NCBI RefSeq assembly: GCF_024490875.1
Contig: NZ_JACCLX010000016.1
Location: 62,001-126,000, forward strand
DNA length: 64,000 bases
Reading direction: 5' to 3'
Source: Methanocaldococcus sp.
GTDB lineage: Archaea > AGJL01 > Methanococci > Methanococcales > Methanocaldococcaceae
Part shown: positions 16,181 to 31,014 of the stretch, one piece after another
How positions within the stretch are numbered: the first letter of the stretch is position 1
How the letters are laid out: every line of letters begins with the position of its first letter
Position numbers and translations under genes: made by a program
Notes under the pieces: model-generated
What the model saw: only the letters and a program-made list of their open reading frames with translations
The model's database searches: none
Told to the model about the DNA's origin: nothing

Positions 16181-16253
16181 AATATCACGTTGAATATTAA
16201 TAGTAGTTAATTTAACATCATAACATATTTAGTTATCTCTTTTGGGTGAAAGA

Positions 16254-17177
16254 ATGATAACAACAGTTGTAGGTAGTTATCCAGTTGTTAAAAAAGAAGA
16301 GAAATTCTTTGATAAAGTAAAAAAAGTTTTTGGATTGTACGATGAATATAAATATGCTATTGAAAAGGCAGTTATAGATCAGGTTAATGCTGGAATAGAT
16401 ATTATAAGTGATGGACAAGTTAGAGGAGATATGATAGAAATTTTTACAAGTAAAATGTATGGATTTGATGGAAAGAGAGTTATTAATAAGATTGAATTTA
16501 TTGAGCCAATTACTGTAAAAGATATATTATATGCTAAAAATATTATTAAGAAATTAAATCCAAAGGTAAAAGTTAAAGGAATTATAACTGGACCTTGCAC
16601 TATTGCGGCATCGGTTAGAGTTGAAAATTATTATACTGACAATAAAGATGAAAATTTAATTTACGATATTGCTAAGGCTTTGAGAAAAGAAGTTGAAGAA
16701 TTAAAAAAATATGTTCCAATAATTCAGATTGATGAGCCAATATTATCAACAGGTTTATATGATTTTGATATAGCAAGGAAGGCAATAGATATAATTGTTA
16801 AGGATTTAGATATTACATTTGCAATGCATGTTTGTGGAAATGTCTATAATATTATTGATGAGTTAAATAAATTTAATGTAGATATTTTAGACCACGAATT
16901 TGCTTCAAATAGAAAAAATTTAGATATATTGGAAAGTATAAAAAAGAAAGTTGGCTTTGGTTGTGTAAATACTAAAATTAAAAAAGTAGAAAGTGTAGAT
17001 ACTATAAAAAGTTTAATAGAGGAAGGTTTAGAGATATTAAAAAACAATGAAAATTTAAGTAAAAATTTATTTGAAAATATTTTAATAGATCCAGACTGTG
17101 GGATGAGATTGTTACCAATAGATGTTGCTTTTAATAAGTTAAAAAATATGGTTGAAGCATCTAAACTTATTAATTAA
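16254..17177 (+). CDS. metE: Core methionine synthase (MetE C-terminal domain type)
   Basis: A 307-residue protein equal to the catalytic C-terminal barrel of cobalamin-independent methionine synthase. The zinc ligands are visible in AMHVCGNVYN (His and Cys) and DPDCGMRLLP (Cys), with VVGSYP at the start and QIDEPILSTG in the middle. Short archaeal core-MetE proteins take the methyl group from a corrinoid protein or methylcobalamin rather than methyl-tetrahydrofolate. That fits an organism using tetrahydromethanopterin and is knowledge of the family, not visible here. The open frame begins with a TTG at 16242, but GGTGA inside it is the ribosome binding site of the ATG at 16254. Its end overlaps the convergent DUF2341 gene by 8 bases. 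Confidence 0.92.
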   Translation: MITTVVGSYPVVKKEEKFFDKVKKVFGLYDEYKYAIEKAVIDQVNAGIDIISDGQVRGDMIEIFTSKMYGFDGKRVINKIEFIEPITVKDILYAKNIIKKLNPKVKVKGIITGPCTIAASVRVENYYTDNKDENLIYDIAKALRKEVEELKKYVPIIQIDEPILSTGLYDFDIARKAIDIIVKDLDITFAMHVCGNVYNIIDELNKFNVDILDHEFASNRKNLDILESIKKKVGFGCVNTKIKKVESVDTIKSLIEEGLEILKNNENLSKNLFENILIDPDCGMRLLPIDVAFNKLKNMVEASKLIN

Positions 17178-18735
17178 TTGCTACTATTGGTTCGTAACCT
17201 ACATTACCCCAACTGTCTGTTGCATTTGTATATAATCCTATAATAGAATAAGAACCATTTTGAACGAAAATATATAATTTAGGTTCTCCATAATATATAG
17301 TTCTGTTATATGTTTTTGGTTTTTCTTCTTTATAATTAGGGTTAGTTATAACATTTGAACTTACAGTTGTTTTTATATTATTAATATCTTTCACAAAAAC
17401 CCAATCTATTGAAACTTTTGCATTGTTATTATATAATGTAATCACAGAAACTGAATAGTTGTTGCTATTTATTCCATATATAGTATTAGTATATAATTGG
17501 TTTAAAGTATCATTATCTATTTTAAAGGTTGTATTTAATGGATTTCTTTGGATTATGTAAATGAAATAATTATTTAAATAATTATTATAACCATTAACGT
17601 AATATCTATTATTATTTATAATCATATACAACGCATTAATTGTATATGCCCAATCTACTCCACTATTATAACTCGTATCATTAAAGAATCCTACTGCCTG
17701 AGTTCCTACATTACTAAAATTGCCTCTAAATACTAACTCATAACCTGTTCCAAAACTCTTATATGAATGAATCCCTGAATTAGTTCCTACAACTGTTAAA
17801 ATTCCATTATTTACAGAAACATTTCCTGAAATATTCCATTTACTACTATTTAATATTGAAAAGTTATCAAACAGTAAGAATGTCTTATCAGGATTTTGTC
17901 TATCAACTGTTGTATTGGAGCCATATAGTAATCTTATGTATCCACTATTATTGACATAATTTATTATTTGACTTTTATTACATCTCACCCAAATTATTGA
18001 AACATGGTTATTTCCATAATACCATATTTGAACCCAATATGGTAAAAGAACATTATTATTTCCAATTATTCTAATTTCAGTTGGTGAGTAGGGATTAACC
18101 ATTTGACTATAATTAAAGTTACTATCATTTAATATTATACAAAACGTGTGACTCTTATTGTCATTTGGGAAATTATATATGTTAATATCTTTTTCATAAC
18201 TCCAAGTATAGTAGAAGTTGTTTAAATATACATAAGGATCTGGAATTCTAAATAGTGTTATATTTTTATTAATGGTTAAAGGTTTTGAACAAAAAATCTC
18301 TCCATTATTTATCTTTTTTATTAAGTTAATATTAATAGTCATTATTAAATTGATTACTTTAGGATTATTTGTAGGATATATATTCACAGTAGTGATATTA
18401 AAAGATAAATTACTACTATTATCTATTAAACAACTTAAAGTTCTGTTAGTTTCGTTTTTTATATAACTTTTTATGTAATTTACAGCATCTGAGGAATTAT
18501 CAAAAAACTTATGCTCTGTCATAATTTTATAACTTGTATTTACAAAGGCATCTTCAACAATTTTGTTAATATTTCTATCTAAACTGTTTATTAAATTATG
18601 TTCAAATAATGTTACTTTTTTTACTTCAATTTCATCTTCAACTTCTTTAGTCTTATAATTTATTGCCAAATAGAATATTGATGATATAACAAAAACTAAC
18701 ATAACCAAAATTATAGCATTTTGGGAGATATACAT
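17170..18735 (-). CDS. Membrane-anchored DUF2341-type surface protein
   Basis: A 521-residue protein with one N-terminal hydrophobic helix (residues 5-25, AIILVMLVFVISSIFYLAI) and a large Asn- and Tyr-rich outer part with many NxS/T sequons. Residues about 165-275 fit DUF2341 (LLPYWVQIWYYG, SGYIRLLYGS). Residues 285-460 resemble a concanavalin-like fold (FLLFDNFSILNSSKWNISG). It is the last gene of the minus-strand surface operon. The short N terminus before the helix resembles a pilin-like anchor without a clear class III motif. I infer a minor component or adhesin of the surface structure. Base composition is even poorer in GC than the neighbours, as usual for such proteins. Confidence 0.75.
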   Translation of the reverse strand: MYISQNAIILVMLVFVISSIFYLAINYKTKEVEDEIEVKKVTLFEHNLINSLDRNINKIVEDAFVNTSYKIMTEHKFFDNSSDAVNYIKSYIKNETNRTLSCLIDNSSNLSFNITTVNIYPTNNPKVINLIMTININLIKKINNGEIFCSKPLTINKNITLFRIPDPYVYLNNFYYTWSYEKDINIYNFPNDNKSHTFCIILNDSNFNYSQMVNPYSPTEIRIIGNNNVLLPYWVQIWYYGNNHVSIIWVRCNKSQIINYVNNSGYIRLLYGSNTTVDRQNPDKTFLLFDNFSILNSSKWNISGNVSVNNGILTVVGTNSGIHSYKSFGTGYELVFRGNFSNVGTQAVGFFNDTSYNSGVDWAYTINALYMIINNNRYYVNGYNNYLNNYFIYIIQRNPLNTTFKIDNDTLNQLYTNTIYGINSNNYSVSVITLYNNNAKVSIDWVFVKDINNIKTTVSSNVITNPNYKEEKPKTYNRTIYYGEPKLYIFVQNGSYSIIGLYTNATDSWGNVGYEPIVAIN

Positions 18736-18755
18736 AAAAATCCCTTTATCTTTAT

Positions 18756-19286
18756 TTAATTATAAATTATTAATTTAACTCTTGATGTAGTTACATTTTT
18801 TGATAAATAAACAGGCATATCTATTGAATAATTTTCATAATGGGAATATGCTTCATCATAATCGAGGTATCTTTCATTTGATATATTTATATTGTTTTCA
18901 TCTCCATAAATAACATACCAGCCCTCACTTCTATTTAGAGTTAAAACTGTTAATACTAATACATATATAGTATTGTTATATTTTTTAGTAGTTTTATTTA
19001 TTAGAAGGTGGTTATCTATATATAACAAATAATTATTGAGAGGAATATTTTCCTCTAAAAGTTTTTTAGATTCATTAACTTTTCCAAAATAGTATAATAA
19101 AACTGCATTTTGTAAGGTTCCATCTTCTGATAAATGTTCCATTGTTTTGATTCCTTTGTCAAATAGATAGTCAGATTTTACAGCATCTACATAGTTATTG
19201 TTATGCTCTAATATAGACACTGACCAATAAGCCATTCCTATTATTAAAATTGTAGTCCCTATAATTAAATCTAAATTATTAATCAT
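18756..19286 (-). CDS. Small pilin-like membrane-anchored protein
   Basis: A 176-residue protein with an N-terminal hydrophobic helix (LIIGTTILIIGMAYWSVSIL, about residues 7-26) after only six residues, then a soluble region with several NxS/T sites. There is no cysteine or catalytic motif. The start has a strong GGTGA site. Its start overlaps the end of the upstream gene by 8 bases, so translation is coupled. Archaeal minor pilins and flagellar accessory proteins have this build. The exact family is not recognised. Confidence 0.72.
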   Translation of the reverse strand: MINNLDLIIGTTILIIGMAYWSVSILEHNNNYVDAVKSDYLFDKGIKTMEHLSEDGTLQNAVLLYYFGKVNESKKLLEENIPLNNYLLYIDNHLLINKTTKKYNNTIYVLVLTVLTLNRSEGWYVIYGDENNINISNERYLDYDEAYSHYENYSIDMPVYLSKNVTTSRVKLIIYN

Positions 19287-20166
19287 TTTGATTCACCATT
19301 ATGGTGATATTTCTTGGAGATAATGTTAAATAATAGAATTTAGTATCGTTAGTAGTTTCAATTTTAAACTCTACTGGAACAGGACTATATAGTATCTCAA
19401 TTTTGTTTATTCCAGATATTATATTTGGAATTATTTCATTTATATTTTTAAAGGAAGAATTTAAAGATTTATTATAGATATATCCGTTAATTGAAAATAT
19501 GACCTCTGAAGAACCTGTATAATTTAACAATTTAGCGCTGACATTAGATATATTTATATTATTTGTTTTGTAATTTTGTATTTTAAAATATATGTGATCT
19601 CCTTCACATCCATAAAGATATACAACATTTGAATTATAAGTGATTCCTGTTATTTTTGGAATATAGACATTTTCTTTAAAAAATACTACCCAATCATATA
19701 TTTTGATATTACTAAGGTTAATTGATATATTATTAACATTTGATACATTTGAATATATTTTAAATATAATTCCAGAGAAATTAAATGTTATGTTAGATAA
19801 ATTAACATAGTTATTTAGTATATTGTCATATTTATTTGGATAAATAATAAATATAAATCTATCTGAATCATTTGTAAAATTGTTAATTGGGTCGAATGTC
19901 TTTTCTTTTAAATTTAGTTCATCTGTAAAATTTTGTATATAATCTTCACTATAATTTCCAGGGAATTCATATTTTTTTAGAAATAGATCTTTTAATAACA
20001 GTGCTTTGTGAAACTTTTCAGTATCTTTTTTTTCCTCTATACCTGTTAATAAATTATGGCTATATATACTATATCCTAAAAAAAAGATAGTTAAAAATAT
20101 AAAGGCAACAATTACAGCTTCAAAAGTAAAAATGATTCCTCTATTTGATTTAATTTTTTTTATCAT
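19279..20166 (-). CDS. Pilin-like protein with N-terminal processing-site-like segment
   Basis: A 295-residue protein starting with a basic segment KKIKSNRG, then IIFTFEAVIVAFIFLTIFF. This resembles class III archaeal prepilin signals: a short positive stretch, a glycine at the cut site, glutamate at about +6 and then a long hydrophobic helix. The canonical QxSxE is not kept, so processing is inferred. The outer part is Asn-rich with a beta-strand pattern and NxS/T sites. It lies between the archaeosortase gene and the small pilin-like gene in one operon and overlaps the latter. Confidence 0.72.
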   Translation of the reverse strand: MIKKIKSNRGIIFTFEAVIVAFIFLTIFFLGYSIYSHNLLTGIEEKKDTEKFHKALLLKDLFLKKYEFPGNYSEDYIQNFTDELNLKEKTFDPINNFTNDSDRFIFIIYPNKYDNILNNYVNLSNITFNFSGIIFKIYSNVSNVNNISINLSNIKIYDWVVFFKENVYIPKITGITYNSNVVYLYGCEGDHIYFKIQNYKTNNINISNVSAKLLNYTGSSEVIFSINGYIYNKSLNSSFKNINEIIPNIISGINKIEILYSPVPVEFKIETTNDTKFYYLTLSPRNITIMVNQND

Positions 20167-20187
20167 AACAATCTCCTTTTTTAATTT

Positions 20188-20640
20188 TTATTCAATTACT
20201 CCAATTTTTAATAATATTTTAACCCACATAAAATTTAAAAATAACGCTACTGGAAAAATTATAAAACTTAAAACATTATGTACAATACTATAATTTGCAT
20301 ATTGTGAATTTTTTAAAATAAGTATTATTCTTAATATATTTACTATGTTTATTATAAAAATTCCAAAAATTGAATATAGAAATTTATATTTAATGGAAAC
20401 TTTTGGAGTAGCAAGAACATAACCTAAAAATAAAGAGATCTCCAAAGAGCAAGTACAGGCAGATATTATAGTATAGACATCTCCATTGTATATAATTATA
20501 TTATTATAATACTGTGTTTTTAATAAATTCCCAATAATGTATGCTAAAATTTTGGATATTTCAACTTCAAAATATCTTATAAAAAAATATATTGTTGGAA
20601 ATAGAATTAAAAAATTAATTAAATATTTTTTATTCTCCAT
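20188..20640 (-). CDS. artE: Archaeosortase family membrane peptidase/transpeptidase
   Basis: A 150-residue integral membrane protein with about five hydrophobic helices. It has the exosortase/archaeosortase catalytic triad: Cys62 in ACTCSLEISLF, Arg104 in NILRIIL and His121 in VHNVLSF. Enzymes of this family recognise a C-terminal tripartite signal (short motif, transmembrane helix, basic cluster), cut it and attach the protein to a lipid. The likely substrate is the PKD protein two genes upstream, which ends in such a signal. I assign the ArtE type from small size and the dedicated-locus pattern, from memory. The start overlaps the class III pilin gene by 11 bases, so the two are coupled. 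Confidence 0.85.
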   Translation of the reverse strand: MENKKYLINFLILFPTIYFFIRYFEVEISKILAYIIGNLLKTQYYNNIIIYNGDVYTIISACTCSLEISLFLGYVLATPKVSIKYKFLYSIFGIFIINIVNILRIILILKNSQYANYSIVHNVLSFIIFPVALFLNFMWVKILLKIGVIE

Positions 20641-20854
20641 TAGTTGTAACCTCTTTAACCTTATCTACCTGTTGAAGAACTTTATTATTAGCTTCAATTG
20701 TAGATTTTACACTTGTAGTTTTAGCAGTTGTTGAAGATTGTGATATAGATTTTAAATAATAAAATCCAACAATAGATATTACAGCTACAATTGCTGCAAG
20801 TAGTAAAGCAAATTCTGCGGATATTTGCCCTCTATTGGATATTATTTTTTTCAT
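20630..20854 (-). CDS. Class III signal peptide pilin
   Basis: A 74-residue pilin of the euryarchaeal type IV pilus family. The N terminus MKKIISNRGQISAEFALLL contains the class III signal: positive residues, a glycine cut site for the EppA peptidase, then Q-I-S-A-E-F before a continuous hydrophobic helix (to about residue 36). The remaining 38 residues are polar, rich in Ser and Thr. It is short enough to be a main structural subunit. Its start follows a GAGGAG site and overlaps the stop of the PKD gene. Its end overlaps the archaeosortase start. Confidence 0.88.
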   Translation of the reverse strand: MKKIISNRGQISAEFALLLAAIVAVISIVGFYYLKSISQSSTTAKTTSVKSTIEANNKVLQQVDKVKEVTTNGE

Positions 20855-23800
20855 TTTAATCTCCTCATTATGTAATTTATACTAAATAAGGTTGTTATAA
20901 AGATAATTATTTCTATTGGAAGTGGTATTGGAATGCTCCTCATAGATACATTAGTTACTGAAACTATTCTAATAGTTGAGCCTGTAAGATTATCATTATC
21001 TACTACGGTTAATTTAACAATATATACTCCAGATTTGTTATAAATGTGAGTAATTATAGGATTGGTAGTAGTATTCGTAGTTCCATCTCCAAAGTCCCAG
21101 ATATATTTTACTATTTTTCCATCTATATCATAAGATGATGATGCATTAAAGGTTACATTTAACCCATTTACTGTAAAAGTAAATCTTGCAATTGGTGGAT
21201 ATTTTCCTGTACCTTTTACTATTACTTTTGTTGATGTAGATGCACTTAAACCATAATTGTTTATAATTGTTAAAGTTACATTATATATTCCTTGTTGTGT
21301 ATATATATGAATTGGATTAGGTTGATTTGATGTGCTTCCATCTTCAAAGTTCCAAATGTATTCTTTAATATATCCAGGAATCGTGATAGATTTATCTGTA
21401 AAGTTTATTGGTTGATTGACATAAACAATAGTTGGACAGGTAAAATTAGCTTTAATGTAAAATACATTTACAGGAATTGTAATAGAACTTGATGAATTTA
21501 GATTATCATAAACTGTAAGTGTTACATTGTATGTTCCTGGGCTAGTATAGATATGAGTAATATTTGAAGAATTAGTCTCAATTATATTTCCATCTCCAAA
21601 GTTCCAAACATATTTTACAATTTTTCCATCTGGATCATAAGATAATGATACAAAAGTTATAGTTTGATTAACCTTAGGAAGATTTGGAGAGTAAGTAAAT
21701 TCTGCGATTGGAGGTTTATTTATAATAGTAAATGTAACACTTGTTGTGTTTGTCTTACCCCAACCATCCCAAACTGTCAATACTGCTGTGTAGTTTCCAG
21801 TTTCATTAAATTTGTGAGATACTATTGTTAAACCATTATTTGAGGTATAATTCCATACTATATTTCCTGATGAATCATATACTGTTAAATTAAATCCATA
21901 AATACTTGCATAAGGTTCAGTTGGGGATATTATATAACCTGAACCATCAGACAATGTTCTACCAGCATCAGGATCATAACTATTTAATGGGTTGAAAAAT
22001 ACTGTTGTGTTGTAACTTGCAGGATTTGGATAGACATATAATTGAGCAACAGGGTTGTGGTTATTAATAACTTTTATCATTCTTGGATAAAACTGTCCTA
22101 TATCATATCCTTCAATGTAATAGATTCCTTCTTTTAAAAATTGGTATGTTATATTTAGTATATAAGTAGAATAGTTCCATACATTACCTATATATGTAAC
22201 ATATCCAGGATAGTAGAGATAATTACTAACTATCCAATAAGATCTCCACCGTTTTGATATATATGAAAATACAGATTCATATAAAACATTATAATTATAA
22301 TTTTCAACATATAAATCTAAATAATCACTTAATATATAAGGATCAAAATAAAGAACATTAACTGTTCCATTTACTGGTATTGCAGTAGGTTCAACATATA
22401 GCATAGTAGATACAATCTTATTATTTTGTATTACAGGTCCAAAACCAACTGAGACAACACCATTACTATCTACGATTAAAACGTGTGCTTGATAATATTT
22501 ATTGTCATTAGAATATTGATGCCAAGGATTATTTTCTAAAGAATAATTACCATCTCCAAAACTCCAAAATACAAAGACAGGTTTTCCATAAGGATAATCA
22601 AAACTATATTGAATACCACCATTTACTTCCTTAGCATAAACAAATACATCGTAATGAACTTTTTGCCTTAACATTAATGTTACTGTTTTGTTAATATTAT
22701 CTGAATAGAAATAAAATTTTACAATATGATTAGTAGGATCATAAATGACTTTTGGCTTAGATGTATAGGTATTGTTAGGAATAAACTCATAAATTGTATT
22801 TCCCTCATCTCCAACAGCTAAATAATCTAATGTTGCTGAAAAAGCAGTCCATCCTCCATTATATGAGAACTCCATCCAACATATAGGATATATAAATGGA
22901 TAGGAATATTTATGGATAAAAATATCTCCATAATAGTATGGTTCATATTCAGTTTCATTACCATCTCCATAGTCATATTTTAGATACCAAGTAGTTAATA
23001 AATTACTATAAGATGCATCAATAGGTTCAAAATACATAGTATCATTTACTTTATACGCCATTGCATAGATATCTTCAACATCTACACTTCCTGAAGAGTT
23101 ATAAACATAACTCTCATTTCTTATGGGCTCAAAGTATCCTCCTATAGGTCTATTTACTTTAATACCTTCATATAAATATCCTACTAAAACTCTCCCATAG
23201 TCATCAACTAATAAAACTCTTGGATAGTAAATTCCAGGTTTTGTATAAGTATGTGTAGGAGATTTTTCAAAGGAAAATGTTCCATCTCCGAAGCACCAAA
23301 CAGTTAATATTATATTTCTACTTATAGAGTAGTTGAATTTAACGCTATCTCCAACAACAATGTTATCTCTGCTAACGTTTATTGTAACAGGAGTAAGATC
23401 TACACTTAAACCATTAAATTCATAATTTTCGGGAGTTTCTGAATAATATCTTATTATGACAGTATTACTTGAACTATTATAACTTACATTCCACTGTTCT
23501 TTTGAGTAATAAGTAGGACTTCCATTAAAAATATACTTAGTATTTTTTACATCTCTAACAACGAGCCAGTTGTATGTTAAAGCCTTAGAGTAACCAGTAT
23601 TATTTAAATAGCCACACCATGCAACAGGATATGGAAATGGAAAACTATACTTATGTATAACTATTCTATTATTAATACTATAGTTTGTTTCTGTTAAATC
23701 TCCAAAATCCCATTTTATTAATCCATTATTTAATATAATTTCAGCAACAGAATCAGGAGCTAAGGCTGTAAATGTTATGTTATCATTAACTTTATATGCA

Positions 23801-23955
23801 ATAATAGAAGGATTGTAGTTATTTGTATATCCACTACTATTTGTTATATTCATAGTTCCTTTATGAACTAATATAATGTATCCATTAGACATTGAGATAT
23901 TTAAACCTAAAAATAATAGAGATGCTATAAAAATTAATAAACGATTTACTTTCAT
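20851..23955 (-). CDS. Large secreted PKD-repeat surface protein with archaeosortase signal
   Basis: A 1034-residue exported protein. It has an N-terminal signal peptide (MKVNRLLIFIASLLFLGLNI) and a tandem duplication of about 247 residues (near 25-268 and 272-515, for example AYKVND at 53 and again at 300), each unit ending in a PKD-like domain. A middle region follows, then four PKD-type domains marked by WNFGDG, WNFEDG and WDFGDG. The extreme C terminus is a tripartite sorting signal: PIPLP, a hydrophobic helix EIIIFITTLFSINYI and MRRLK. Many NxS/T sites suggest N-glycosylation. The archaeosortase in the same operon should process this tail. Probable role: cell-surface or pilus-associated adhesin. 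Confidence 0.88.
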   Translation of the reverse strand: MKVNRLLIFIASLLFLGLNISMSNGYIILVHKGTMNITNSSGYTNNYNPSIIAYKVNDNITFTALAPDSVAEIILNNGLIKWDFGDLTETNYSINNRIVIHKYSFPFPYPVAWCGYLNNTGYSKALTYNWLVVRDVKNTKYIFNGSPTYYSKEQWNVSYNSSSNTVIIRYYSETPENYEFNGLSVDLTPVTINVSRDNIVVGDSVKFNYSISRNIILTVWCFGDGTFSFEKSPTHTYTKPGIYYPRVLLVDDYGRVLVGYLYEGIKVNRPIGGYFEPIRNESYVYNSSGSVDVEDIYAMAYKVNDTMYFEPIDASYSNLLTTWYLKYDYGDGNETEYEPYYYGDIFIHKYSYPFIYPICWMEFSYNGGWTAFSATLDYLAVGDEGNTIYEFIPNNTYTSKPKVIYDPTNHIVKFYFYSDNINKTVTLMLRQKVHYDVFVYAKEVNGGIQYSFDYPYGKPVFVFWSFGDGNYSLENNPWHQYSNDNKYYQAHVLIVDSNGVVSVGFGPVIQNNKIVSTMLYVEPTAIPVNGTVNVLYFDPYILSDYLDLYVENYNYNVLYESVFSYISKRWRSYWIVSNYLYYPGYVTYIGNVWNYSTYILNITYQFLKEGIYYIEGYDIGQFYPRMIKVINNHNPVAQLYVYPNPASYNTTVFFNPLNSYDPDAGRTLSDGSGYIISPTEPYASIYGFNLTVYDSSGNIVWNYTSNNGLTIVSHKFNETGNYTAVLTVWDGWGKTNTTSVTFTIINKPPIAEFTYSPNLPKVNQTITFVSLSYDPDGKIVKYVWNFGDGNIIETNSSNITHIYTSPGTYNVTLTVYDNLNSSSSITIPVNVFYIKANFTCPTIVYVNQPINFTDKSITIPGYIKEYIWNFEDGSTSNQPNPIHIYTQQGIYNVTLTIINNYGLSASTSTKVIVKGTGKYPPIARFTFTVNGLNVTFNASSSYDIDGKIVKYIWDFGDGTTNTTTNPIITHIYNKSGVYIVKLTVVDNDNLTGSTIRIVSVTNVSMRSIPIPLPIEIIIFITTLFSINYIMRRLK

Positions 23956-23984
23956 AATCCCACCAGATAAAAATAATATTTTAT

Positions 23985-24434
23985 TTAACTAAAACTAATA
24001 TTTACATTTAATTTCTTAGAAACATTTACTATTTTCCCATCCACATTGGCAGTTATAACTATATTGTTTCCTACATTTATAGGAGATTGTTTAAATACAC
24101 CAGTTAAAATAACACCATTTTTATTAGGAGTAATTAAAATATATGTGTCACCATATACACTTATAGTTTTGTTTTTTATTGTTAAATTGTATCCCAATAT
24201 CCCAATAGGTTTTAATTTTAATTTAATACTAACATTTTTTGTATATGCTAAAATTGCATAATTTTCAAAAGTATCGGCTATATCATATAATCTATTCACA
24301 ATTAAAGAGTTGGTCATACTAGTTGTATAACTAAGTTCTATATTGTATAATATTAATGAAATAATTAATAATAAAAATATAGCCATAATAAGGTCAATAG
24401 ATATTTGTCCTCTTTTTTTTGTTAGTTTTATCAT
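23985..24434 (-). CDS. Pilin-like protein with class III-type signal (variant)
   Basis: A 149-residue protein starting KKRGQISIDLIMAIFLLLII. This is a class III prepilin signal in which the usual glutamate of QxSxE is replaced by aspartate. The helix reaches about residue 32. The rest is a small beta-rich domain (about 60-149) with sequons. A GGGGTAG site precedes the start. It is the second gene of the surface operon, 50 bases after the longer pilin-like gene. The E-to-D change may affect assembly or mark it as a minor subunit. Confidence 0.8.
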   Translation of the reverse strand: MIKLTKKRGQISIDLIMAIFLLLIISLILYNIELSYTTSMTNSLIVNRLYDIADTFENYAILAYTKNVSIKLKLKPIGILGYNLTIKNKTISVYGDTYILITPNKNGVILTGVFKQSPINVGNNIVITANVDGKIVNVSKKLNVNISFS

Positions 24435-24484
24435 ATACTACCCCTAATACTTGATAAAATTATAAAATTTTAATAATTAAACTA

Positions 24485-25348
24485 TTATTTTGTTATATTT
24501 TCAATTGTTACCCCAGTAGCTTTACCTTCAAGATAAACACGTTTATTTTTCTTTAAATGTAAGTTTAAGCCTGTATCAGAACTTGGATAGATATTGTATA
24601 TTATTATATTTCCAGTATAATCCCAAGAACTGATTAATATTTTATTATTATACTTTAAATAAATCCATGTATGATTACCAAATACATCTAATGTTAATGT
24701 TGACTCTATATTTGATAAATTAGCTTTAATACTTCTAGTTTTTACAATTTCTGTATTTTCAGCAACTAAATTTCCATTTATGTAAATTTCCTTAATAGGT
24801 AAATCCTTTATATCAACCCATCCATTTTTATCTATATAAATTTTTCCTGATGAAACGTTATTTACAACTATTTTAATTATATCATTTTTATTAATTTTAA
24901 TAGATTTTCCATTGCTTAACTTTATATAGGAATGATCATATTCAAAGATATTCTGAAAGATTACATATCCATTAAGTGTAGCATTAACAAGGTTAGTAGA
25001 TAGATATATATTGGTTCCATTATAGTTTGTTATTGTGTATCTATATTGATTTTTATTAGTTATTCTGTGTCTATATTGATTTTGTATTGTTTTATTAGAT
25101 ATATTGGATGAAGTATTTATAGATATATTAATAATTTTAGATGGAATTAATACAGTAATTGAAGATGATAAGTTTGAAGATACATTTGGCTCTTTAAATG
25201 TAATTAGTGTGGGCCTACTAAGAGTTTCATTTTTATTATTACTTATACCAAGATTCACGTTTAGAGTTTGAGTAGCAATAATAGCACCTCCAATAATAAC
25301 TGCAAAAATCAAGATAATTAATTCAAGAGATAGTTGTCCTCTTTTCAT
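24485..25348 (-). CDS. Long pilin-like protein with class III signal and a 10-residue repeat
   Basis: A 287-residue protein beginning MKRGQLSLELIILIFAVII, a full class III signal (QxSxE) with the cut expected after the glycine. The outer domain is rich in Asn, Ile, Ser and Thr. It contains two consecutive 10-residue repeats (NQYRHRITNK, NQYRYTITNY) encoded by a 30-base direct repeat at about 25030-25089. The frame opens four codons earlier at 25360, but that ATG sits over the GGTGAG site serving the ATG at 25348. First gene of the minus-strand surface operon, with a TATA box at 25451-25460. Confidence 0.82.
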   Translation of the reverse strand: MKRGQLSLELIILIFAVIIGGAIIATQTLNVNLGISNNKNETLSRPTLITFKEPNVSSNLSSSITVLIPSKIINISINTSSNISNKTIQNQYRHRITNKNQYRYTITNYNGTNIYLSTNLVNATLNGYVIFQNIFEYDHSYIKLSNGKSIKINKNDIIKIVVNNVSSGKIYIDKNGWVDIKDLPIKEIYINGNLVAENTEIVKTRSIKANLSNIESTLTLDVFGNHTWIYLKYNNKILISSWDYTGNIIIYNIYPSSDTGLNLHLKKNKRVYLEGKATGVTIENITK

Positions 25349-25450
25349 AGTACTCACCATAACAATACCTTATATTGAAATATTTGAATTATTTAAAATA
25401 AGGATTGCTTTATTTTACTATCTTCAATGTTAAGTTTATTTAATTAAAGT

Positions 25451-25498: not shown

Positions 25499-28400
25499 TT
25501 ATTTTATGCTTAAAATTTCCTCATATAGAGTTCTTAAAACTTCCAAATAATCTACTTCGCCATTTTCAATTTTATCCATAATTTCCTCTAACTCTCTTGT
25601 TCTCTCCTCTGATATTAGATGAGGATAATGACTTATTAGATAATTATAAACTTCAATTCCTAATTTTGTAGGGATTAATTTATTTTTACCTTTGCTTTTA
25701 ATTACATATCCTCTATCTAACAACTTTTTAATAATTTGGGCATAGGTTGAAGGCCTTCCAATTCCTCTCTCTTTCATTAACTTAATAACTTCTCCCTCAT
25801 CATACAATGGAACTTTTGGAACTTTTTTAATACTCTTTTCTAACACTTTTAAGTAATTTTTCTCTATTTTTGGAAGTTTTTTTAACTTTAAATTATAGAT
25901 TCTACTCCATCCATCAAACTTTATATCTATGTATCCTTCAATTTTTTCATCTAAATCTTTTATATATATCTCTTCATATTCAACAATTGCCTCTTTCATC
26001 TGAGAGGCTATAAATCTTCTAAATATTAAATCATAAACTTTTATATGATTTTTTGTTAATTTTATATTACTCTCTTTTAAAAACTCAATAAGTTCTTCTG
26101 TGTCCATAGGCTTTGTAGGTCTTATACATTCATGTGCTCCTTCCATAAAATACTCTCTATTTTTTAAATAATCCTCTAAATTATTTAGTTTTAAATATTC
26201 CTTTGCAACTCTCATTCCATCTAACGAAACTCTCGTTGAAGAAGTTCTATGATATGTGCAGTTATGTGAAATAACCCCATTTGATATAAAGTTTTGGTTA
26301 TTTTTAATGGTTAGGTCATAAACATATCCATCATAGAAAATATCTTCTACATTTTTAACCCTAACAAATGATATCTCTCCATCAACAATTTTTTCTAAAA
26401 ACTCTTTATATTCTGAGTTATTTACATATTTTAAAACTGTCTTTAATTTATTTCTTGGAATATTGTTTGTCTTTTCTTTATACCAATTTTCAATGTATAT
26501 CTTACTATCTTTTAGTATATACTTTCTTCCTATTTTGAATGTTAATTTTTCAAATATTTCTTTTACTGGTAATAAATCACATCCAAATCCTTCCCCGTGT
26601 TCTTCCCTATATGTATTATAACCTCTCTCAAATGCTTCTTTTCTAATTCTTAGATATTTGGCAATTTTCTCCTTAAAGGTTTCTAATGATTTATTGCTTA
26701 TTATTAAGGAGTAAATTCTATTTTTATCTTTATGCAATCTGTTTAATATTCCAATTGAGTTTAAGTAAATACCTATCTTTTCTAAAACTTCTTTTCTTTT
26801 TGAAGTTAGAAGCATTCTTAAATTATGTTTTTTAACATTTTTGTTATACAGTAATGAGAAACATCCATCAGTATCAAAGTAACCAGCAATTAGTGCATTA
26901 ACATAGTTTTCTGGAAGAGAAAATATTATTCCATTTAATTTTCCTTCTCTTGTTCCTAATTTTCTTAAAATTTCTGCAATGATTGGATTTGAAATATTTA
27001 CTTGATTTCCAGAAATCCAATTATGTAAGAATGGAAATGTTTCATCCAATATAGTTTTAACATCTTTTAGTGGAGTTTGTGCAATCTTAATTTTGCTATT
27101 TTGAATGGACCCATCACCTAAAACTAATCCTACAAAATACCAAAACCTTTCATCTAATTTAAATAATGGAATTTTTTTAGTGCCTGCAACACTTTTGTAT
27201 ATATATTTTGCTTCCTTTTCAACCTCATCTAAATTAAAGTTCCATTTTATCAAATACTTTAATGGAACTCTTTTATTTCTAAGATATTTATATTTTGTAC
27301 TAGTTTTGATATTTTTCCTAATAAATTCTTCTATTTTTTCAAATATTCTTGAATTCTCGTCAAACTCTATTAAAACATCAGTAATGTCTAAATATTTCAA
27401 AAGATTCAATAATGATATTGGTTTTCTATCAACTTTGTAGTTAAAAGGCATTGCAATGTAATCATTTTCTTTAATATCTTTTGCAGAAATCCATCTCAAT
27501 TGATTATCTCTTAAAACCAATAAGTGGTGGTCAGGAGTTGCTTTTATCTCATAATTATTTGATAATATAATTTTTCTTAGATTTCCAGTGTATCTCAATT
27601 TCCAGAATTTTGTGACAATGTCTTTCTTTATTGATAAATCATCTAAATCTAACGATAAAATATTTCCTTCTTGAATATTAACAATATCTTCAATTGTTTC
27701 AATTCTACCATCTCCCAATACAACATAAGTGTCTGGTGTTAAACACAATCCCAATTCAAACAATTCTTGGGCAATAGCCATTACTTCATCTGCACTTAAA
27801 TTAAATCTCTTTGTAGATTCTTCCAATAAAGTATCTGTTGTAAATGGAGGTAATGGGTTAATTTCTTTCTCATATATTTTGACTTCAACTTCTACCTCAT
27901 CTTTATCAAATTCTTTTTCCCAAACCTTTCCTATGTAAATGTCATTTTCCAATTTTAATGATAAGTAAGGAACTTTTATTTTATGTTCATTGTATCTCTC
28001 TATAATCCAACCTAAGACAGGAGTTTGAACTCTACCAGCAGATAGATAGTTTTTATTAAATACCTCCCACAACTTTTGACTTAACCTAAATCCAATCCAC
28101 CTATCTTCTATTCTTCTAACAACTTGCCCCTTAACTTTATTTTCATCTAACTTTAACTCTTCTCCTTTTTTAAATGATTCTACTGCCTTTAAAATAGCCC
28201 TCTTTGTAATTTCGTTAAAGCCAACTCTATATATGTTTTTGTTAAATGGCATACTGTTAAGTGCTATGTCATAGCCTATCTTTTCTCCCTCAGTATCAAT
28301 ATCTGTTGCTATAAATATAGCATCTACTTCATCGGCTATTTCTCTAATAATCTCTATATTTTCCTTAGAATCCATAAAATTAACTTTTTCTCCACTTTTT

Positions 28401-30343
28401 GATAGTTGTTTTAACAACTCCTCTATATTCTTCTGGTCTGTAAATTGTTCCCCATTAACTTTTTTAATTGATGTATATATAGGAATATACACATTGTTTT
28501 CTATCTTTACTCCATAAAATCCTTCTTTTGTAACTAAATCAAATACATGTCCTCCACTAGCAGTTATAATTAAATTTATGTCTCCTATACAAACTTCATA
28601 AACATTTCTATTGTTTATCTTCCTAATTGAAGGTTTTCCAAAGAAACTTGCAATAGTTCTTGCCTTGTTTGGACTTTCTACAACCATTAAAACAGATTTT
28701 AGTAAATCAGGAATTTTTCCAGTAATTCTTCCTTTTTTAATTTTTTCCCTAAGTTCATCAATTTTTTTAATTAACTCCTCTATGTTAATTTCATCTATCT
28801 TTTTAAATTCACTTTCGTACATAAAAAGCATATACTTGTTAAGATACTCAAAAATATCTTTTTCATCAACCAACACTATACTTGCTCCTTTAGTTAAACC
28901 AAACTCTGTCATTCTTGATGTTCTTCCAGATGCTTGAATATATGTTTTTACATCTGGAATTAATAATAAATACTCATTATCCTCTACTCTTATAGAGAAA
29001 TTTTTTATCTTCAATTTTTCAGAAACTATTTCTTTAATCTCCTCTAAGGTTTTCCCTTCAATATCTATATCTTCTTTTAATTCACCTTTTTCTTTTAATT
29101 TCTCAATATATTCTTTTAACTTGATTTTAAACTTAGGAACTCCATAGAATATAGCATATCTAACCCTTTCGGGCATATCTAAACCTCTAACTAAAACTCC
29201 GTAGTAAGAGGCTACACCAATCAAAACATCTAATTTCCCTTCTCTAAAATCATCAAATCCTTTTTTATCTTTTGAGTGTATTAACTTTGCCTTTATACCA
29301 TTTTTAATTAAAAATTCTTCAATCTCTTTTGCTTTTTCAACTCCATAATCTATTGAGACAAATATAAGTCCTCCACTACCAAATATTTTTATATATTCTA
29401 ATATTTTATTTAAACTAAGTTCTTCATCATATATATCTTCAACATCTCTAAGTTTGTTCATTCCATAGCCAATTTCAAAATTCAACAATTCCCTATAAAG
29501 TTTTACTCTATCTCCATAACTCTTTCCAGTGGCTGAGGCAATTATTAAACATCCATATTTTATTTTTGACAATTTTTTCTTTAATATTTCTCTCTTTTTT
29601 AATGCATCTTCTATCTTTCCAATTTTTATTAGGTATATTATTTTATACGCTTCATTAATTATTTCATCGTCAAATCCCAACAATTTTAAAGTTCTATCAA
29701 CATTTTTAGATGCCTTTAATAATGCATCAACATCATCCACAAATATAAAGTCAAATTTTGTGTTTGGAGGATTTTTTGCCAAATAGTTTGAAGTTGTTAT
29801 CAGTATATCGAAATCATTGTTGTCTATTTTCTCTTTAACTTCCTTCTTTTCTTTTGTAGATAATTCTGAATGATAGGCAACAACATTTATTTTTAAATTA
29901 TTTTTATCTATCAAAGAGATAATTCTTTCATAGGTTTGTTTTATCAATAAAGTTGTAGGTAAGATTATATAACATTTTTTTCCTTTTTTTGCTAAGAATA
30001 AACTCATCAATACTCCAAAGAAACTCTTCCCCACACCAGTTGGGGCAACAATTGAAAAACTTTTATTTTTTAAAACTCTCTTAGCCCACATTCTTTGAAT
30101 ACTCAACAACTCATAGCCCAAACTTTTTACAAATTCCTCAAATTCTTTAAACTCATTTAATATTTTGCAATAATCTTTTAAATTTTTTAAAGTTTTTTCT
30201 TCTCTAAGTTTTTTACATAATTCTAAGTTATCTTTAACATATTCATCCTTTAAGCATTTTTCACATACTCCTACTTCAAATCTTTCGCTATAAATCTCTC
30301 CATTACAGTTAGGGCACATTTCTTTAAATATCATAGGTATCAT
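25499..30343 (-). CDS. rgy: Reverse gyrase with intein
   Basis: Reverse gyrase adds positive supercoils and marks hyperthermophiles. The precursor is about 1614 residues, of which 495 are intein, leaving a 1119-residue enzyme. In order: an N-terminal zinc finger (CPNCNGE, CEKC), a helicase-like module with Walker A SIVAPTGVGKSFF and FVDDVDALL, the Toprim segment VVESPNKARTIASFF with ATDIDTEGEKIGYD, and the topoisomerase IA domain with catalytic Tyr in TYHRTSS (residue 1364 of the precursor). The frame stays open to 30481, but the upstream 46 residues are hydrophobic leader-like translation of the promoter. The ATG at 30343 has a GGTG site and precedes the zinc finger closely. Divergent from taw3. 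Confidence 0.93.
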   Translation of the reverse strand: MIPMIFKEMCPNCNGEIYSERFEVGVCEKCLKDEYVKDNLELCKKLREEKTLKNLKDYCKILNEFKEFEEFVKSLGYELLSIQRMWAKRVLKNKSFSIVAPTGVGKSFFGVLMSLFLAKKGKKCYIILPTTLLIKQTYERIISLIDKNNLKINVVAYHSELSTKEKKEVKEKIDNNDFDILITTSNYLAKNPPNTKFDFIFVDDVDALLKASKNVDRTLKLLGFDDEIINEAYKIIYLIKIGKIEDALKKREILKKKLSKIKYGCLIIASATGKSYGDRVKLYRELLNFEIGYGMNKLRDVEDIYDEELSLNKILEYIKIFGSGGLIFVSIDYGVEKAKEIEEFLIKNGIKAKLIHSKDKKGFDDFREGKLDVLIGVASYYGVLVRGLDMPERVRYAIFYGVPKFKIKLKEYIEKLKEKGELKEDIDIEGKTLEEIKEIVSEKLKIKNFSIRVEDNEYLLLIPDVKTYIQASGRTSRMTEFGLTKGASIVLVDEKDIFEYLNKYMLFMYESEFKKIDEINIEELIKKIDELREKIKKGRITGKIPDLLKSVLMVVESPNKARTIASFFGKPSIRKINNRNVYEVCIGDINLIITASGGHVFDLVTKEGFYGVKIENNVYIPIYTSIKKVNGEQFTDQKNIEELLKQLSKSGEKVNFMDSKENIEIIREIADEVDAIFIATDIDTEGEKIGYDIALNSMPFNKNIYRVGFNEITKRAILKAVESFKKGEELKLDENKVKGQVVRRIEDRWIGFRLSQKLWEVFNKNYLSAGRVQTPVLGWIIERYNEHKIKVPYLSLKLENDIYIGKVWEKEFDKDEVEVEVKIYEKEINPLPPFTTDTLLEESTKRFNLSADEVMAIAQELFELGLCLTPDTYVVLGDGRIETIEDIVNIQEGNILSLDLDDLSIKKDIVTKFWKLRYTGNLRKIILSNNYEIKATPDHHLLVLRDNQLRWISAKDIKENDYIAMPFNYKVDRKPISLLNLLKYLDITDVLIEFDENSRIFEKIEEFIRKNIKTSTKYKYLRNKRVPLKYLIKWNFNLDEVEKEAKYIYKSVAGTKKIPLFKLDERFWYFVGLVLGDGSIQNSKIKIAQTPLKDVKTILDETFPFLHNWISGNQVNISNPIIAEILRKLGTREGKLNGIIFSLPENYVNALIAGYFDTDGCFSLLYNKNVKKHNLRMLLTSKRKEVLEKIGIYLNSIGILNRLHKDKNRIYSLIISNKSLETFKEKIAKYLRIRKEAFERGYNTYREEHGEGFGCDLLPVKEIFEKLTFKIGRKYILKDSKIYIENWYKEKTNNIPRNKLKTVLKYVNNSEYKEFLEKIVDGEISFVRVKNVEDIFYDGYVYDLTIKNNQNFISNGVISHNCTYHRTSSTRVSLDGMRVAKEYLKLNNLEDYLKNREYFMEGAHECIRPTKPMDTEELIEFLKESNIKLTKNHIKVYDLIFRRFIASQMKEAIVEYEEIYIKDLDEKIEGYIDIKFDGWSRIYNLKLKKLPKIEKNYLKVLEKSIKKVPKVPLYDEGEVIKLMKERGIGRPSTYAQIIKKLLDRGYVIKSKGKNKLIPTKLGIEVYNYLISHYPHLISEERTRELEEIMDKIENGEVDYLEVLRTLYEEILSIK
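26261..27745 (-). mobile_element. Intein with LAGLIDADG homing endonuclease in reverse gyrase
   Basis: A 495-residue in-frame insertion that splices itself out of the protein. It starts with Cys (CLTPDTYVVLGDG, block A) and has KATPDHHLLVL (block B, with the conserved His). The two LAGLIDADG helices are VGLVLGDGSI and IAGYFDTDGCF, both keeping the acidic residue needed for DNA cutting. It ends YDGYVYDLTIKN, then GVISHN, followed by Cys+1. The joined product reads ELGLCTYHRTSS, so the element sits two residues before the catalytic tyrosine. M. jannaschii reverse gyrase has an intein of nearly the same length, to my memory at the same site. Confidence 0.95.
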
Positions 30344-30362
30344 AATAAACACCAAAATTATT

Positions 30363-30380
30363 AATAAATAATTATTTATT
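30363..30380. repeat. 18-base perfect palindrome between rgy and taw3
   Basis: AATAAATAATTATTTATT reads the same on both strands. It lies midway between the divergent starts at 30343 and 30430. It may be a two-way promoter element or a protein binding site, but it is made only of A and T and could be chance in so A+T-rich a genome. Confidence 0.35.
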
Positions 30381-30429
30381 TTTGATTTCAACAAAATTGG
30401 TTTAAAAACTTTTTGCTTTGAGTGAGAGT

Positions 30430-31014
30430 ATGAGATTTGAAGATGACAAAAAAAGAACATTGATAAATTTAGAATTAGCAATTAGGGAGAACTTAGTAGA
30501 TAAAGATATAATTCCAATACTTGAAAAAATAAACAGTTTAGAAAATTATTACACTACGAGTTCTTGCATAGGTAGAGTAGGAATTATGGAAATACCAAAA
30601 GATAAGAATCCTAAAATATATTCAAAGTGGTTAGGTAAATGGCATCACTATGCCACATACGAAGAGATGTTTAACTCCCTAAAAAATATTTCCAATGAGA
30701 AAAATTATATTATCTTTGTTATGAACTCTCCAATATTACATATAGCATCAAAAGATATTGATTCAGCAAAAAAAATGCTTGAATTAGCAATACATTCTGG
30801 TTTAAAAAGTTCTTCAATAAAATCAATATCTAAGAAAAGGATAATTGTTGAAATTTTAACTACCTATAAAGTAGATGCTCCAATAGGAGAAGATGGAAAG
30901 ATATTTGTAGATAACAATTACTTAAAGTTTTTATTAGATTATAGCAATTCCAAACTCAAAAGAGCGAGAGAAATTTTTATGAGATGGGTAAATAATTTAG
31001 ATAAACTAAAATAA
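30430..31014 (+). CDS. taw3: tRNA wybutosine-synthesis methyltransferase Taw3
   Basis: Taw3 (TYW3 family) methylates the N4 position during wyosine-derivative formation at G37 of tRNA-Phe. The 194-residue protein has the family core: YYTTSSCIGRVGIMEIP near residue 40, KWLGKWHHYATYEEM with the conserved His residues, and later GLKSSSIKSISKKRIIVE. The frame opens with TTG at 30418, but GTGAG within it is the ribosome binding site for the ATG at 30430. Other wyosine genes (taw1, taw2) are not in the window. It is followed after 33 bases by hef. Confidence 0.9.
   Translation: MRFEDDKKRTLINLELAIRENLVDKDIIPILEKINSLENYYTTSSCIGRVGIMEIPKDKNPKIYSKWLGKWHHYATYEEMFNSLKNISNEKNYIIFVMNSPILHIASKDIDSAKKMLELAIHSGLKSSSIKSISKKRIIVEILTTYKVDAPIGEDGKIFVDNNYLKFLLDYSNSKLKRAREIFMRWVNNLDKLK

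Follow-up and report, generated by a model that had tools for sequence, protein, structure and literature searches.

The 64,000-nucleotide stretch of Methanocaldococcus sp. DNA analyzed here (hereafter the window) carries an operon of eight minus-strand genes at 17170-25360, which by sequence comparison represents the distal half of an Epd/Clade 1 type IV pilus locus, with orthologues of epdC, MMJJ_08210, epdH and epdI (F1, F5, F6 and F7 in Table 1). After epdC, this operon holds a cassette of three genes encoding a PKD-repeat protein, a small class III pilin and an archaeosortase. Our preferred reading, to which we assign a probability of roughly 0.75, is a distal Epd locus with a self-contained archaeosortase cassette, whose product would be a pilus together with a surface-anchored PKD protein. 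The triad of archaeosortase D (ArtD), PIP-CTERM substrate and class III pilin is already catalogued in NCBIfam and is not new; the novelty lies in the frame, that is, in an archaeosortase cassette embedded in an Epd pilus locus. No description of such an insertion into the Epd operon was found in the literature examined, and Haft et al. (2012) may state part of it.

The frame was recognized by orthology and synteny. The searches covered 36 Methanococcales genomes, labelled G000 to G035, of which G000 is the genome carrying the window; a wider search for ArtD at the phylum level gave the same 36. In genomes lacking ArtD, profiles of F1, F5, F6 and F7 recovered an identically ordered block, and the M. 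maripaludis open reading frames (ORFs) of epdC, epdH and epdI were matched by the profiles of F1 (127.8 bits), F6 (139.9 bits) and F7 (168.7 bits), respectively. The block of G014 consists of epdC, MMJJ_08210, epdH and epdI, and the transposon coordinates printed for these genes in PMC10133366 all lie inside the matching ORFs, so that G014 is evidently M. maripaludis JJ. In that study, the M. maripaludis insertions that abolished transformation numbered eight in epdI, four in epdH, nine in 08210 and two in epdC. The proximal Epd half of the window genome lies on another contig (G000:C6), which encodes EppA (526.7 bits), EpdA, EpdF, an 08260 orthologue and a pilin, and a third contig (G000:C24) carries a secretion ATPase (T2SSE) adjoining two T2SSF (TadC-type) proteins. 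With its flanking genes being Epd orthologues and the proximal half located elsewhere, the operon is assigned to the distal half of the locus. An earlier interpretation made from the letters of this DNA (the sequence-only reading) had the operon building one surface structure by itself, and this part has to be given up. Makarova et al. (2016, PMC4858521), who do not use the word "sortase" in their paper, describe the Clade 1 pilus with its EppA, its pair of TadC proteins and its DUF2341 proteins, for which they propose a role as PilY1-like tip adhesins.

The enzyme of the cassette was identified as ArtD by a full-length match to TIGR04175 above the curated cut-off (Table 1). PF09721 (EpsH) was tried as a probe and discarded; it matched only the archaeosortase E (ArtE) homologue, and TIGR04175 was needed instead. 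Cys62, Arg104 and His121 stand where the sequence-only reading had placed them and are invariant across 15 ArtD and 11 ArtE sequences. Archaeosortase substrates are generally defined by C-terminal tails of the tripartite type. The PKD protein, encoded two genes before the enzyme, ends in ...SIPIPLPIEIIIFITTLFSINYIMRRLK, in agreement with the motif, hydrophobic helix and basic end described earlier, and its residues 1008-1033 scored 31.2 bits against PIP_CTERM (cut-off 30). In a scan of the whole assembly, this tail was the sole match over the TIGR04173 cut-off (35.7 bits), so the claim of a single visible substrate holds genome-wide. The pilin between them belongs to TIGR04205, a family named for its association with ArtD and PIP-CTERM, and its gene indeed shares 4 nt with the PKD gene and 11 nt with the ArtD gene; nearly all orthologous loci show short overlaps of this kind. 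Every other element of the earlier description was also present, including two further class III-type proteins (F0 and F1) and three more membrane-anchored proteins downstream (F5, F6 and F7, all N-anchored), and the features it had missed are the DUF2341 domain of F7 and the prepilin-like N terminus of F5. The whole gene set recurs in other genomes and is thus not a product of chance.

ArtD and TIGR04205 exceeded their cut-offs in an identical set of 15 of the 36 genomes. Exactly one large PIP-tailed protein was found in each of these 15, and 13 of the tails exceed the TIGR04173 cut-off. The two below it, in G009 (23.6 bits) and G012 (15.5 bits), belong to full-length proteins of the same PKD family (about 1010-1020 residues) and are intact, with a VPVP or IPVP motif (VPVP in G009). 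A convincing PIP-CTERM was not found in the other 21 genomes, which are those without ArtD. The Fisher value for this co-distribution was 1.8e-10 and is descriptive only, because related genomes are not independent. The pairing of enzyme and tail suggested earlier was borne out when the C termini of the PKD orthologues were compared: the PIP-type tail is kept in every orthologue of the ArtD genomes, and ArtD and PIP tail are paired one-to-one.

In 11 of the 15 ArtD genomes, the cassette is placed between F1 and F5; in a further one (G008) the contig starts inside the PKD gene, and three loci (G003, G009 and G012) show rearrangement. No cassette is present in G022, where F1 adjoins F5; the closest pilus block to its own is that of G023. 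The F6 and F7 sequences split into two well-supported types, and the cassette generally accompanies one of them, plus G035 of the other type. There it sits at the corresponding slot of a complete Epd locus, and the ArtD of this genome is nested within Methanocaldococcus. The simplest reading of these comparisons is that the cassette behaves as one module, acquired or lost whole, and has been transferred. In G009 the pilin and ArtD genes remain adjacent, with the PKD gene by itself on a different contig. In the vicinity of this stand-alone gene, short repeated motifs within spurious ORFs (L050:500-3500) point to a CRISPR array.

In the mechanism that we propose, the PKD protein would be exported by its N-terminal signal (Sec) and retained by its C-terminal helix. 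ArtD would then cut it at the PIP motif, and the new C terminus would most probably be transferred to a membrane lipid, by analogy with ArtA in haloarchaea. No analysis of an ArtD product was found in the literature. EppA, encoded elsewhere, would remove the class III leaders from the cassette pilin and from the minor pilins; in line with the earlier idea of two processing enzymes, the window genome encodes EppA for prepilins and ArtD for the PIP tail. The Epd ATPase and the two TadC-type proteins would assemble the trimmed pilins. The predicted product of the one operon is a pilus with DUF2341 proteins as tip or minor subunits, together with a surface-anchored PKD protein that may be physically associated with it, and its role may be adhesion and perhaps DNA uptake.

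Several points weigh against this reading. The PKD gene is separate in G009, the gene order differs in G012, and the linkage to the pilus block is not absolute. Among the genomes searched that retain this pilus block, those of Methanococcus and most of those of Methanothermococcus lack ArtD, which is therefore no general requirement of the pilus. As to a pilin fold of the minor subunits, the F6 model (pLDDT 74.9) gave no significant fold match in the PDB; the F7 model (pLDDT 51) was too poor for a structure search, and a comparison of the F7 sequence with PDB sequences gave nothing useful. To our knowledge, lipid attachment is established for ArtA only.

Other explanations were weighed on the same evidence. 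The ArtD, PKD protein and small pilin might form an independent surface module that shares only the transcription of the pilus operon, which we consider unlikely. The movement of the cassette as a unit fits such independence, as do the position of the G009 cassette genes apart from the pilus genes and the occurrence of the pilus block without a cassette in most genomes outside Methanocaldococcus. However, the cassette includes a prepilin that needs a prepilin peptidase, and the same slot was entered in a different pilus subtype in G035. Moreover, the slot is filled in Methanococcus by a different protein with a tail of its own, and insertion mutants of this protein fail transformation.

The continued pairing of pilin and ArtD genes in G009, with the PKD gene separate, bears on two further alternatives. 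ArtD could act like a sortase and ligate the cleaved PKD protein to the cassette pilin instead of to lipid, which would also suit the overlap of the two genes and their co-distribution in 15 of 15 genomes. We regard such a conjugation as highly improbable: beyond the class III and helix region, the pilin alignment contains no invariant lysine except one in FYY(L/V)K at the helix end, and known archaeosortase products are lipid linked. Slightly less probable still is that the PIP-type tail is a mere membrane anchor and that the true target of ArtD is another one, such as the class III pilin beside which it stays in G009. A PIP-type motif, beyond simple hydrophobicity, is kept in all 15 genomes, that of G009 among them, tail and ArtD are strictly co-distributed, and it is established that such tails generally mark the substrates of these enzymes.

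The slot between F1 and F5 is also occupied in G014-G017, where it encodes a secreted protein of 162-172 residues with tripartite-like tails such as IIKLPISSDVNFLVFILCLICLMRRKG; in G014 this protein is MMJJ_08230. A protein of this type gave no significant match in Pfam or NCBIfam, and the weak PDB matches of the family were carbohydrate-binding modules (E 0.012). The family (about 155-185 residues) occurs across Methanococcales; 23 of its sequences, when aligned, share six invariant columns, one of them the tail proline. Among 27 genomes at least 90% complete, ArtE and the MMJJ_08230 family were both present in 22 and both missing in 5, and the four mismatches all fell in genomes 81-89% complete. 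G018, G020, G024 and G025, without ArtE and without the family, keep pilus-block genes, which indicates that the joint loss is specific. According to the available part of PMC10133366, MMJJ_08230 insertions and deletion of artE each abolish transformation in M. maripaludis, and no ArtE substrate is named there. We tentatively propose, at somewhat less than even odds, that processing by an archaeosortase forms a working step of the Epd-type pilus throughout Methanococcales, that the position following epdC accommodates archaeosortase substrates (in Methanococcus MMJJ_08230, served by ArtE; in Methanocaldococcus the PIP-tailed PKD protein, accompanied by its own ArtD and pilin), and that the MMJJ_08230 family is the substrate of ArtE. 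If true, this would explain the loss of DNA uptake in the artE deletion. The joint absences form about two clades, so that the co-occurrence is supportive and not conclusive. In addition, the MMJJ_08230 insertions may be polar on 08210, epdH and epdI, and one of the four positions printed for them in PMC10133366 (753,363) lies outside the gene, apparently through a misprint. The family gene is also found away from the pilus locus in most other genomes.

A location of ArtE beside its substrate gene was considered and rejected, the neighbours of the ArtE gene not being surface genes. In the window genome, the ArtE gene (L049:5715-6245; G000:C16:53759-54211) lies on the same contig as ArtD at a distance of about 28 kb, flanked by ThiL-like and RNA methyltransferase-like genes in an arrangement conserved in several genomes. 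A representative of the MMJJ_08230-type family, secreted and uncatalogued, is found at L055:12921-13439 on the minus strand. The MMJJ_08230-type protein of the window genome (L102:6087-7844; G000:C19) runs into a flippase-like membrane protein in one ORF of 585 residues, as a fusion or a sequence error.

The features of the operon are listed in Table 1. Intergenic gaps of 20-50 nt and three gene overlaps, those of the pilin gene and one of 8 nt between F5 and F6, are consistent with one operon. F0 starts at 25360; an internal Met had been taken earlier, giving 25348. Its match to Class_IIIsignal was 23.3 bits (cut-off 23.7), and pilin-like proteins resembling it border the operon in other Methanocaldococcus. 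F5 is only 295 residues long in the window because it is missing the DUF2341 region, a middle part of about 320 residues carried by most orthologues (612-631 residues); the same part is also missing in G002 and G035. An AT-rich gap of 138 nt separates the operon from the upstream reverse gyrase gene (25499-30481), which contains an apparent in-frame intein (CLTPDTYVV ... ISHNC). At the other end, a convergent MetE-like gene (16242-17177) overlaps the operon by 8 nt, and the same neighbour is found in most Methanocaldococcus loci.

Table 1. Features of the pilus operon and its archaeosortase cassette in the window.
Feature	Position	Strand	Description
F0, first operon gene	24485..25360	-	Pilin-like, 291 aa, Methanocaldococcus-specific; class III-type N terminus KRG/QLSLELIIL (slash, predicted cleavage site)
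F1, EpdC orthologue	23985..24434	-	Minor pilin, 149 aa; class III-type N terminus RG/QISIDLIMAI
Cassette gene 1, PKD-repeat protein	20851..23955	-	Secreted, 1034 aa, predicted ArtD substrate; six PKD_4 stretches; PIP-CTERM over cut-off
PIP-CTERM tail of PKD protein	20854..20934	-	TIGR04173; SIPIPLP motif, hydrophobic helix, RRLK
Cassette gene 2, class III pilin	20630..20854	-	74 aa; ArtD-associated family TIGR04205, 103.6 bits (cut-off 65); alignment of 15
Cassette gene 3, archaeosortase D	20188..20640	-	150 aa; TIGR04175, 196 bits (cut-off 125)
ArtD Cys62	20455-20457	-	
ArtD Arg104	20329-20331	-	
ArtD His121	20278-20280	-	
F5, MMJJ_08210 orthologue	19279..20166	-	295 aa; prepilin-like start RG/IIFTFEA (pattern RG/xxFTxEA)
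F6, EpdH orthologue	18756..19286	-	176 aa; N-terminal membrane helix; 26-sequence alignment
F7, EpdI orthologue	17170..18735	-	521 aa; DUF2341 (54.7 bits); predicted PilY1-like tip adhesin

Archaeosortases and type IV pili have mostly been treated as separate topics. In this operon, a pilin, a dedicated sortase and its predicted substrate are embedded among pilus genes with orthologues that are required for DNA uptake, which would link archaeal protein sorting to pilus function. The comparison also predicts a specific substrate for ArtE, without which M. maripaludis does not undergo natural transformation. These predictions are testable with existing tools in a genetically tractable relative, and one strain would serve for the ArtE substrate.

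Among known systems, ArtA/PGF-CTERM of haloarchaea belongs to the same superfamily and shares the Cys-Arg-His catalytic set and the tripartite C-terminal signal. ArtA has many substrates and is not known to be part of a pilus operon, whereas ArtD, a smaller enzyme, is paired with a single substrate in each genome. ArtE (TIGR04124) is likewise a small archaeosortase of the same order, and its deletion phenotype in M. maripaludis (PMC10133366) ties it to natural transformation; unlike ArtD, it is encoded among housekeeping-type genes and is predicted to serve the MMJJ_08230 family. The Epd pilus of M. maripaludis has the same gene order of epdC, MMJJ_08210, epdH and epdI, and its EppA, EpdA, EpdF, ATPase and two TadC-type proteins all have counterparts elsewhere in the window genome. 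In contrast, the locus of the window genome is split in two, its 08210 orthologue has lost DUF2341, and a three-gene archaeosortase cassette follows epdC.

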